NCBI GenBank assembly: GCA_947260005.1
Contig: CAMYOL010000007.1
Coordinates: forward strand, 62,001 to 126,000
DNA: 64,000 bases
Direction of reading: 5' to 3'
Source of the DNA: an uncultured Ectothiorhodospiraceae bacterium
Lineage (GTDB): Bacteria > Pseudomonadota > Gammaproteobacteria > UBA6429 > Thiohalophilaceae
Below the pieces are notes generated by a model. The model made no database searches. It saw only the letters and a list, made by a program, of their open reading frames with translations, and was not told the DNA's origin. Shown here piece after piece: positions 46,612 through 51,353 of this stretch. The position numbers and the translations under genes are program-made. The first letter of the stretch is position 1. Every line of letters starts with the position of its first letter.

Positions 46612-47577
46612 CTACATATTAATATTGATATTTTCACGATGACCATTACGTTCAATGCCCAACGAAATATTCGATTGCGACTTCAAATCAGAAAACAAAC
46701 TTTGTAATACTGCCGGGTCACTAACCTGCTGCCCATTCACTTCTAAAATCACGTCACCGGGTCTTAAACCCAGGGCACGCATGGTTTGTCGATCCTTATG
46801 TGTAAATTTATAACCTTTAATCTGTTTAGCTGCGTCAAAAACCGGGTTAATCTGGACCTCTGCCATAAATTCTTGCGGGTTTTCTGACAGCTTCTTTTTT
46901 AAATCCTCTAAACGTTTACCTGCACGAATCGTTCTTGTCCGTACCACACCCGAGCTGCGCGGTGCAGTTGCTTTCGGTCGGGTAGAACGTCCTCTTGTTG
47001 AGCGAACGGGTCCGCGACCACGGCTCTTTTTCCCTTCAACCAAAGTCAGGGTTTCAAAATTTCCACTGCGATCCAGAATCACCTTATCCGCTAAAATGTC
47101 ATGAAGTATCACGCCAGAAAAAATAGTTTCGTTTTTTTTGTAAACTTTCTCTTCTCCCTGTGCATTAGCAATCATGGCTAAGGCCTGACCTGCGTCATTC
47201 GATGCAAACACGCCACGTAAGGTTAATTTTAACCCGGTCTTCGGCGCATCCACTGGGGCCTTCACGGTTGCGGCACGATTCACCTCGCCAAACAGATGCA
47301 AATTCGCCACCGTACGTAATCGTGGTTGCGAGCTACGAGTGACTGGCACCGTTCTTGGTTGCGGCTTGGTTGTCACGATCACTTCATCTGGCGCAAAGAT
47401 GATCCAGGTTAAGTCCGCAGCCGACTTCGCAACCAACACCACCAGAATAAATGACACCCAGGTTGGTGCTGAACGCCACCATTTCTTCAATGGCAGATTT
47501 GTGAAGAGCGACGCCCACTCCTGCGTGGCCTTTTGTATCTGACCTTGCATTGATTTCCTTGATTCCTGTGACTTCAA
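46612..47577 (-). CDS. gspC: Type II secretion system protein C with PDZ domain
   Basis: Links the platform to the secretin. The 321-aa protein has one membrane helix (WVSFILVVLVAKSAADLTWI, about 39-58), the HR domain (GLKLTLRGVFASNDAGQALA), a very basic linker rich in Arg, Gly and Ser (about 180-215), and a C-terminal PDZ domain (MRALGLRPGDVILEVNGQQV). It is the first gene of the gsp operon, divergent from pilA with 717 bp between. Confidence 0.93.
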   Translation of the reverse strand: MKSQESRKSMQGQIQKATQEWASLFTNLPLKKWWRSAPTWVSFILVVLVAKSAADLTWIIFAPDEVIVTTKPQPRTVPVTRSSQPRLRTVANLHLFGEVNRAATVKAPVDAPKTGLKLTLRGVFASNDAGQALAMIANAQGEEKVYKKNETIFSGVILHDILADKVILDRSGNFETLTLVEGKKSRGRGPVRSTRGRSTRPKATAPRSSGVVRTRTIRAGKRLEDLKKKLSENPQEFMAEVQINPVFDAAKQIKGYKFTHKDRQTMRALGLRPGDVILEVNGQQVSDPAVLQSLFSDLKSQSNISLGIERNGHRENININM

Positions 47578-47781
47578 TTCAGTTTGGTTTAAAAAACCAA
47601 TTGAGTTCCTAGTTATTTAATTGGTAGTCACACAACACTTCTTTTTCACATAGTGCTTGACGACACCAATATATTTATATTACAAGTAGTTACTAAGTTT
47701 AGTTAATTTATTTCATTAAGTGAAGCGATTGTTGGCAACATAAGCCGATTTTGCACAGAGTTCGACAAAGTGACCAAAATT

Positions 47782-47990: not shown

Positions 47991-48006
47991 TGGCATGCAA
48001 GCTGCA
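47991..48006 (+). promoter_or_regulatory. Sigma-54 promoter of pilA
   Basis: TGGCATGCAAGCTGCA matches the consensus TGGCACG-N4-TTGCA at all but two defined positions, with GG and GC exactly ten bases apart. Transcription should start near 48017. PilR, encoded in this window, is the expected activator. Confidence 0.85.
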
Positions 48007-48016
48007 ATAAGGATTC

Positions 48017-48294
48017 ACAGGAGCCTCTGATTAAGGCCATCAAGTGGATGGATGGCTAGGCAGAAAAGGGAACGAGTAAGTTAGAAATTAATGACTTTCA
48101 CGTGATTTTGGCGGCGAAACCCGCTTAAGAGTCTTAAACAGAGGCTTCAGAATGGTTCTGATTGGTTTATACCTTGCAAGTCGAAATACTGTCCGTATCG
48201 ACAGCATCGCAGGCAAAGCAAATAAAGGGACTGACGGTACAGCAGGAAATTAAGAACTGAATATTATTCACCCCCAAAAATTTGGAGAGAACAT
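48017..48294 (+). ncRNA. Structured 5' leader RNA of pilA (candidate cis-regulatory RNA)
   Basis: The predicted transcript start leaves about 278 nt before the pilA ATG. A closing helix pairs 48020-48029 with 48139-48148 (ten pairs, one G-U; core AGCCTCTG with CAGAGGCT). Inside are GCCATC/GATGGC (48036-48041 with 48051-48056), GACTTT/AGAGTC (48093-48098 with 48128-48133) and an inner GCGG/CCGC hairpin (48111-48114 with 48121-48124). Downstream come CAGAA/TTCTG (48148-48160) and a GTCGA/TCGAC hairpin (48180-48202). The ribosome site GGAGAGA precedes the start. It does not match the c-di-GMP riboswitch consensus I know. Confidence 0.5.
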
Positions 48295-48759
48295 ATGAAA
48301 GCAACAAAAGGTTTTACACTTATTGAATTGATGATTGTTGTCGCGATCATCGGTATTTTAGCGGCCATCGCCATCCCGGCCTATAATAGCTATGTAACCA
48401 GTGGTAAGGTCACCGGCCATGTTAGTAACTTCGAACGTGCCTATGCCTTTGTCAAATCTGAGGCATCTAAAAAAGCGGCGTCTTATGATTGGGACAACCA
48501 TTGTTCAGATGTGATAAACGAATTGAATGCAGGTAACAAACGCGCCGTAGGCGATACGGCCTCTGACGCTTTTACCACTGCTGCACCTACTGCAGGACAA
48601 GTACAAGTATCTGGTTTGGTAGCTGTTAATGGTAAACAGTGTGTTGACACCGGTGCTAATATTACCATCACCAGTGGTGGCGTTGCGAACGGTACGGTTG
48701 TTGGGGACTATCCAGGTGGTTTAGCTGTCCCGGATCCAATTAACTTCACAGTAGAGTAG
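48295..48759 (+). CDS. pilA: Type IV major pilin PilA
   Basis: Major subunit of the type IV pilus, 154 aa. The short leader MKATKG is cleaved before [20 protein letters not shown], with the essential Glu at mature position 5. The C-terminal half is Thr/Ala/Gly rich, with two cysteines (in NHCSDV and KQCVDT) that probably form the disulfide of the D-region. GGAGAGA lies ahead of the ATG. Expression is probably sigma-54/PilR driven, through a long structured leader, and ends at a strong terminator 40 bp after the stop, so pilA is mostly monocistronic. Confidence 0.95.
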
Positions 48760-48861: not shown

Positions 48862-49287
48862 ATGAAAACATACACAAGATTAGTTATGGCTAGAGGCGTC
48901 ACACTGATAGAGCTAATGATCGTGGTGGGGCTACTGGCCATTATTGGAAGCATCGCTATCCCAGCGTATAACAACTACGTAAAAACCGGCGAAGCGACCG
49001 AATGTCGTAATGAAGTCGCCATTATCCAACTAGCCTTAGAAGAGAATTTTCTTGATTCAAGTCAATACTTTTTAGGTGCTGATATTCTTGCTATTCGTGA
49101 TAACAGCAATGGTCTCTATACGCATACCTTCGACTCTGATGCTGCCGCCACCGCATCCAATTGCACCTACGCGGTTACCGCTGGTTCCACTGGTAGTATT
49201 AATACTAGTTACACACTCACAGCTGATGCTAACGCATCCGGACCGCTAGCCGGTGCTCCAAGTCCTCTTCTTCAGAAAGGAAATTAA
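48862..49287 (+). CDS. Second type IV pilin-like protein with atypical cleavage site
   Basis: A 141-aa pilin-like protein. Leader MKTYTRLVMARG is followed by [20 protein letters not shown]: the glycine and mature Glu5 are conserved, but the first mature residue is Val instead of the usual Phe. Two cysteines (in ECRNEV and NCTYAV) could form a disulfide. The globular part is small and Thr/Ala/Ser rich and resembles PilE-type or alternative major pilins. It starts about 35 bp after the pilA terminator and has no clear promoter of its own, so low-level read-through is possible. It could be a minor or alternative pilin. Confidence 0.85.
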   Translation: MKTYTRLVMARGVTLIELMIVVGLLAIIGSIAIPAYNNYVKTGEATECRNEVAIIQLALEENFLDSSQYFLGADILAIRDNSNGLYTHTFDSDAAATASNCTYAVTAGSTGSINTSYTLTADANASGPLAGAPSPLLQKGN

Positions 49288-49637: not shown

Positions 49638-51353
49638 ATGGCCACTCCAAATCCACAGATTCAACTCGGCGGCCTTGCCCGTAAACTCGTCGTAGACGGC
49701 CTTTTGCCTGAACCCAAAGCACTCGAGGCTCAGAAAAAAGCCTTTGAGACTAAAATTCCATTCGTCAATTATCTGGTTAGTAAAAACCTGGTCAGCGGGC
49801 TCAATGTTGCTAAAGCGGCGGCCAATGAATTTGGTGTGCCGGTAGTCGATATCGCGTCCATCGAGCTGGATCCTGAAGTCGTCAAGCTGGTCAGTGAAAA
49901 ATTGATCCGTAAGCATCGCACTCTACCCATCTATAAACGTGGCAGCCGACTTTTTGTGGCCGTCTCTGACCCAACCAATCTGCAAGGTCTCGATGAGATC
50001 AAGTTCCAGGCCGGAATGGGAACTGAAGCTATATTGGTTGAAGATAACAAACTCACGACGGTTATCGAAAAAGCGATGGAAGCCACCGACACCGTCATGT
50101 CCGATTTAGGCGATTCTGATTTAGATGATCTTGACTTTGCTGATGAAGATACTGCTGGTGGCCCCGAAGTTTCAGAAAGTGATATTGATGATACCCCCGT
50201 GGTTCGCTTTATCAATAAAGTATTACTCGATGCCATAAACAAAGGGGCATCGGATATCCACTTTGAGCCCTATGAAAAAAATTATCGGGTAAGACTCCGA
50301 ATGGACGGTATGTTAAGCGAAGTGGCTTCGCCCCCCGTGGGTATGGCGCCCAAACTCTCGGCCCGGATCAAGGTTATGTCCCGTCTGGATATCTCTGAAC
50401 GCAGAATCCCACAAGATGGTCGCATCAAAATGAATTTATCGAAAAACCGTTCGATCGATTTTCGTGTTAATACCTGTCCGACACTCTATGGCGAAAAAAT
50501 AGTATTACGTATTTTAGATCCAAGTTCCGCCAAGATGGGTATCGATGCACTCGGTTTCGAACCATTTCAAAAAGACATTTACATGGAAAATCTGGCCAAA
50601 CCCTATGGCATGATTTTAGTGACCGGCCCAACCGGTAGTGGTAAGACCGTATCGTTATATACCGGTGTAAATGTATTAAATCAACCCGGAGTCAATATCT
50701 GTACCGCGGAAGATCCGTCCGAAATTAACATGCCTGGCGTTAACCAGGTAAACGTGAATACGAAAGTCGGCTTGACCTTTGCCAGTGCCCTACGCGCCTT
50801 TTTGCGTCAGGACCCGGACATCGTACTGGTTGGCGAAATCCGGGATCTGGAAACGGCTGAGATCGCCATCAAAGCGGCACAAACCGGTCATCTGGTATTA
50901 TCCACCTTACACACCAATGACGCTCCACAAACACTCACGCGTTTAAGTAACATGGGTGTACCAACTTATAATATAGCGTCATCGGTAAACTTAATTATTG
51001 CGCAACGCCTGGCTCGTCGTCTTTGTACTCACTGCAAAAAGCCAGTTAATATTCCAAAAGAAGCCCTTCTGAAGGAAGGTTTTACTCAGGAGGATGTCGC
51101 AAAAGGGATTACGGTGCATACGCCTGCAGGTTGTGACCAATGCAATGAAGGCTACAAAGGCCGGGTTGGTATTTATCAGGTTATGCCCGTTACTGAAGCG
51201 ATTGGTCGGATTATAATGGAAGGTGGCAACTCAATGCAGATTGCCGAACAGGCCGCGAAAGAGGGCGTTCCCGATCTACGCCAATCCGGTCTGAAAAAAG
51301 TCAAAGACGGTATGACTAGTCTCGATGAGATCAACCGCGTAACAAAAGATTAG
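49638..51353 (+). CDS. pilB: Type IV pilus assembly ATPase PilB
   Basis: Hexameric ATPase for pilus extension, 571 aa. N-terminal GSPII_E-type domain (about 40-150), an acidic linker (DLGDSDLDDLDFADEDTAGG), then the motor with Walker A GPTGSGKTVS, Asp/His boxes, Walker B region RQDPDIVLVGEIRDLETAE and the zinc tetracysteine motif CTHC ... CDQC. It precedes pilC and pilD in the standard pilBCD order. Confidence 0.97.
   Translation: MATPNPQIQLGGLARKLVVDGLLPEPKALEAQKKAFETKIPFVNYLVSKNLVSGLNVAKAAANEFGVPVVDIASIELDPEVVKLVSEKLIRKHRTLPIYKRGSRLFVAVSDPTNLQGLDEIKFQAGMGTEAILVEDNKLTTVIEKAMEATDTVMSDLGDSDLDDLDFADEDTAGGPEVSESDIDDTPVVRFINKVLLDAINKGASDIHFEPYEKNYRVRLRMDGMLSEVASPPVGMAPKLSARIKVMSRLDISERRIPQDGRIKMNLSKNRSIDFRVNTCPTLYGEKIVLRILDPSSAKMGIDALGFEPFQKDIYMENLAKPYGMILVTGPTGSGKTVSLYTGVNVLNQPGVNICTAEDPSEINMPGVNQVNVNTKVGLTFASALRAFLRQDPDIVLVGEIRDLETAEIAIKAAQTGHLVLSTLHTNDAPQTLTRLSNMGVPTYNIASSVNLIIAQRLARRLCTHCKKPVNIPKEALLKEGFTQEDVAKGITVHTPAGCDQCNEGYKGRVGIYQVMPVTEAIGRIIMEGGNSMQIAEQAAKEGVPDLRQSGLKKVKDGMTSLDEINRVTKD

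Follow-up and report, generated by a model that had tools for sequence, protein, structure and literature searches.

The leader of pilA, the type IV major pilin gene (48295..48759, + strand; Pfam N_methyl PF07963), contains a transposon remnant directly behind its promoter. Segment 48020..48148 (+ strand) is a degenerate MITE of IS5 type (MITEs being small, non-autonomous transposons), 129 bp long, which would be transcribed as one long hairpin, and it is followed by a conserved 88-nt element of three helices at 48165..48252 (+ strand). We think it probable that the leader is built in two layers behind a sigma-54 promoter, an older three-helix RNA and a younger MITE hairpin kept by selection. 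All positions are those of the window, the whole stretch of 64,000 nucleotides that was analysed.

Promoter and gene context of pilA

The window holds a leftward type II secretion cluster (gspC, gspD, gspE and gspF) and a rightward type IV pilus cluster consisting of pilA, a second pilin gene, pilB, pilC and a prepilin peptidase gene; gspE, gspF, pilC and the peptidase gene were named by reading the open reading frames. The second pilin gene (48862-49287), directly 3' of pilA, matches ComP_DUS, a family of DNA-uptake minor pilins. The gap between gspC and pilA is 717 bp. It includes an AT-rich block (47656-47725) whose core is 97% identical to that of the congener SZUA-24 and which is also kept in genomes G032, G010 and G009; perhaps this is a regulatory site shared by the divergent operons. 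At the 5' end of gspC (47420-47550), third codon positions are 85-95% identical, compared with 25-60% in the rest of the gene. Other genera conserve the stretch as well, and the coding sequence may overlap a regulatory signal there.

The sequence TGGCATGCAAGCTGCA at 47991..48006 (+ strand) fits the sigma-54 consensus with the correct spacing of GG and GC, as an earlier note on this DNA had proposed. Its score was equalled by none of 60 shuffled sequences, and a site of this kind is present in 26 of 30 upstream regions of pilin genes in the family. Because no more than 71-95 nt separate it from the start codon in several relatives, it is likely to be the pilA promoter. From the distance to this site we infer that transcription starts near 48017, which would give a leader of 278 nt (48017..48294, + strand). 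Without the inserted element the leader would measure 149 nt, near the length of the leaders in the congener G003 and in G032 and G010. Upstream of the promoter, the segment 47767..47789 (+ strand), which contains AGTGACCAAAATTGTCA and is conserved in loci L027 and L030, is a probable activator site; the activator may be PilR-like.

Other sigma factors were considered as well. Near-consensus matches to the sigma-28 (flagellar) promoter occur within the pilA leaders of L009, L027 and L030, and others of sigma-28 type closely precede the sigma-54 site in L018, L020-L022 and L035; one example near pilA in the relatives is TAAAGATT-N11-ACCGATAA. A flagellar sigma factor is thus a possible second control of pilin in these relatives. 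The leader in the window had no significant match of this type, and no sigma-70 promoter carried by the MITE was found.

Identity and history of the 5' hairpin

The ten bases GGAGCCUCUG at 48020-48029 pair with CAGAGGCUUC at 48139-48148 in a helix of 10 pairs, one of them G-U, exactly as the earlier note had placed it. That note drew the helix closing around at least two inner stems; the best fold of 48020-48148 is instead a single long imperfect hairpin. For segment 48017-48150 the folding energy is -46.8 kcal/mol (z = -4.80), and none of 200 shuffled sequences was as stable. The expectation of a long structured leader is borne out for the leader as a whole (z = -2.86). Its 3' half (48151-48294), taken alone, is no better than chance (z = -0.26).

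When the leader was used as a DNA query, the whole of it was found in SZUA-24 (84% identity) and only its 3' part in G003. In addition, a 31-bp piece of the left side of the hairpin was found at an unrelated locus of MC-03, where it forms an end of an element that has long inverted repeats. The left terminal inverted repeat, GGARCCTCTGATTAA (48020..48034, + strand), forms the 5' arm of the closing helix. It occurs 51 times in genome G007, where the reversed control pattern does not occur at all, and these copies are often the paired ends of elements of 50-200 bp flanked by TTAA or TTAG. The right terminal inverted repeat, TTAAACAGAGGCTTC (48134..48148, + strand), forms the 3' arm and is degenerate; it may be compared with TTAATCAGAGGCTCC in MC-03. 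Further copies of the MITE are present in the window's genome, G003 and MC-03.

Two sequence models recover the element. A profile HMM of eight copies, none of them from a pilA locus, matched the window at 48021-48090 with nhmmer (E = 3.8e-9), the sole significant match in 64 kb, and the right inverted repeat gave a weak reverse-strand match at 48147-48121. A sequence-only model run with cmsearch aligned to 48024-48136 (E = 1.2e-6) and found family members in 19 of 40 genomes, with a maximum of 73 in MC-03, 24 in G003, 21 in G032 and 5 in the window's genome. Consistent with a MITE, the element is short, its terminal repeats have a few mismatches, and no open reading frame of at least 80 amino acids overlaps it. 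A search for the repeat ends in the window's own genome returned only the copy at pilA and no high-copy MITE; the family could be recognised only with the genomes of relatives. Because copies exist elsewhere, the profile matches and the family is multi-copy, the closing helix is, judged by its sequence, the terminal inverted repeat of a MITE.

The assignment to the IS5 family, whose MITEs have 4-bp duplications of YTAR type, is suggested by the GGARCCTCTGATTAA ends and by duplications of TTAA, TTAG or TAAA at several other copies (TTAA and TTAG in G007). It differs from the typical case in that no target-site duplication is recognisable at the pilA copy and that no transposase element turned up whose ends are identical; a search for a parent element in plasmid records gave no match. 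Among the loci with a DUF772 transposase in MC-03, one has similar but not identical ends. This locus (L085, 1274-2518) is an IS5-like element with ends GGAACCTCTAAAAAT, and it may be related to the MITE family as an autonomous element.

In G003, which belongs to the same genus, and in G032 and G010, the promoter and the downstream leader of pilA are retained, with an empty site where the MITE would lie. Only two congeners, the window's genome and SZUA-24, carry it at pilA. A pattern scan of the genome collection for the left end returned three records only, namely SZUA-24 (at pilA), MC-03 and a Chromatiales MAG, the last two at other loci. A single insertion, in the ancestor common to the window's species and SZUA-24, would be the simplest history. 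Since the MITE is missing at pilA in G003 and in the other genera, it is not an ancestral pilin riboswitch; the strong helix that the earlier note took as the core of a riboswitch-type leader is a transposon end.

Conservation of the MITE at pilA

Between the window's genome and SZUA-24, 114 of 131 columns of the MITE at pilA are identical (87%), and the leader outside the MITE is about 85% identical. Identity at the fourfold sites of gspC, gspD and gspE is 39-45% (about 41%), and these sites are near saturation; the difference has a Fisher p of approximately 4e-22 if sites are taken as independent. The two genomes share the position of a second MITE copy, upstream of a cytochrome c gene (L114, 193-290, and L122). 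This orthologous copy has lost 34 bp and kept 46 of 95 columns, and the pilA copy differs from it at p of approximately 4e-10 over all columns and 0.05 over aligned columns only. Because the MITE at pilA is 87% identical against about 41% at fourfold sites, and the other orthologous MITE has decayed, the comparison suggests that the element has likely been co-opted at pilA, most likely to serve as a 5' hairpin that is structural or is processed by an RNase.

We also weighed the possibility, which we regard as real though the weaker case, that the MITE is a neutral passenger with no role in pilin control, conserved by chance or through a local exchange of genes. Intergenic DNA is where MITEs usually insert (PMC10969869), and this one is absent from the congener G003. 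Local gene exchange could have lowered divergence here; the third positions at the 5' end of gspC (85-95% identical between the two genomes at 47420-47540) are also unusually conserved, as they would be in a recombination tract. However, that end of gspC is kept in other genera as well, for which constraint is the explanation. Intergenic identity falls to 67-68% in two 60-bp windows and is high in patches elsewhere, a pattern that speaks for patchy constraint and is unlike that of uniform recent exchange. A passenger would also have to account for a MITE still at 87% beside fourfold sites near saturation, and for the decay of its counterpart ahead of the cytochrome c gene.

The level at which selection on a co-opted MITE would act is a separate matter. 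The two genomes share 35 pairs of the hairpin, and the changes between them are mostly one-sided (T-G to C-G). The closing helix in SZUA-24 has lost one G-C pair and has no clean two-sided compensatory change, and it thereby fails the covariation test that the earlier note set for it; random substitutions of the same kind left a hairpin equal in stability to that of SZUA-24 in 6% of trials. With two carrier species RNA-level selection on the MITE is unprovable, and selection on the DNA could also be at work.

A mechanism for the co-opted MITE can be proposed by analogy. The IS5-type element would have inserted just after the transcription start, so that its full-length palindrome would be transcribed into a 129-nt hairpin at the extreme 5' end of the mRNA. 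Correia elements, the MITEs of Neisseria, offer a precedent: they too are short dispersed inverted-repeat elements, lying for example just downstream of the mtrCDE promoter, that give a long transcribed hairpin, and RNase III cuts their transcripts at the inverted repeats (PMC10969869). The host is different, no sequence relation is claimed, and RNase cutting, known for Correia elements, is extended to pilA by analogy. ERIC elements of enterobacteria are likewise palindromic intergenic repeats that alter mRNA fate when transcribed, but in the described cases they work through RNase E at the 3' ends of genes (PMC10969869), and again no sequence relation is claimed. On the Correia precedent, the MITE palindrome most plausibly alters mRNA stability or processing: kept by selection, it would most likely shield the 5' end or be cut by a double-strand RNase and in this way set the lifetime of the mRNA.

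The downstream element and possible control of pilin

The leaders of five species in three genera (the window's genome, SZUA-24, G003, G032 and G010) have a common fold over 48165-48252. It comprises P1 (48167-48173 with 48236-48242), P2 (48174-48177 with 48216-48219, UUGC/GCAA), a short P2b within the same segment and the P3 hairpin (48189-48193 with 48200-48204), all on the + strand, with nearly invariant GG(G)A and CAGG motifs 3' of P3. P1 varies by species: it is UUAUACC/GGUAUAA in SZUA-24, UUGUAUC/GGUACAA in G003 and UUGUGCC/GGCGCAA in G032. The window's P1 has one A-C mismatch, and the majority of P1 pairs fail to align in G010. With G003 left out of its construction, the covariance model R2 matches G003 at E = 2.6e-12, a value to which sequence likeness contributes. 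Two-sided changes occur at 5 pairs, compared with a mean of 1.7 in shuffled alignments; 2 of 500 shuffles reach 5, and slid controls give 0-3, in a test that covers only five sequences with an alignment fitted to the model. In other words, the compensatory changes that the closing helix lacks are found further downstream, across three genera, and it is to this segment that the earlier note's idea of an undescribed pilin control element may be transferred from the MITE helix. We consider 48165-48252 a better candidate than the MITE hairpin for conserved pilin control, judging from these patterns; its most plausible mode of action is by way of a protein that affects translation or stability.

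One such protein could be CsrA/RsmA, in which case 48165-48252 would be its binding leader, with conserved GGA-type motifs that flank the ribosome site as well as P1; the MITE would do no more than lengthen the leader. Two GG(A) motifs are nearly invariant across the five leaders, the genome encodes three CsrA homologues, and ANGGA motifs number 20 in 25 leaders, compared with 11.9 +/- 3.1 in shuffles. This enrichment is mild, however, and the leaders are related rather than independent; moreover, the predicted hairpin loops of the window's leader contain no GGA. We regard this specific assignment as doubtful, perhaps one chance in a few. Far less probable, and quite unlikely in our judgement, is the reading advanced in the earlier note, in which the leader, together with its MITE hairpin, would be a riboswitch sensing c-di-GMP, cAMP or a similar ligand. 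A long structured leader does stand ahead of pilA, as in leaders with c-di-GMP and cGAMP riboswitches, and such riboswitches in Clostridium difficile and Geobacter, respectively, are described in papers that deal with pilin genes as well (PMC6200980, PMC8835794). Here, however, the strong helix comes from the end of a transposon, the conserved segment measures only 88 nt, and a class-wide search of 274 genomes under strict filters matched it in the window's own genome only. Covariance models of the Rfam 15 riboswitch families had no match in the window, whether at the gathering threshold or with E values as high as 10, and none in 20 relatives; nor did any Rfam family match 48165-48252. The Rfam matches in the L009 leader were chance ones to snoRNA and lncRNA families. 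The earlier note's statement that the leader fits no known riboswitch therefore stands, and nothing specific favours a ligand riboswitch.

The two-layer leader accommodates these observations. The sigma-54 promoter would drive a pilA transcript in which the older layer, shared with other genera, probably controls translation or stability of the pilin mRNA, and to which the MITE hairpin was added later. More tentatively, and with the odds against it, P1-P2-P3 may represent an undescribed family of pilin-leader RNAs that, in this gammaproteobacterial family, controls pilA once sigma-54 has driven its transcription, with the transposon hairpin domesticated as an added 5' domain in one lineage.

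PilB (49638-51353) contains an MshEN domain, a type of domain known to bind c-di-GMP. Second-messenger control of the pili may therefore act on the motor rather than on the pilA leader. If pilA has a conserved control element, it lies in the downstream half of the leader, which is the less stable one. Caution is called for with leaders that fold very stably, since such a fold can be the palindrome of a transposon. What had been a tempting riboswitch call becomes a testable example in which a transposon would have provided a surface-filament gene with a structured mRNA leader.
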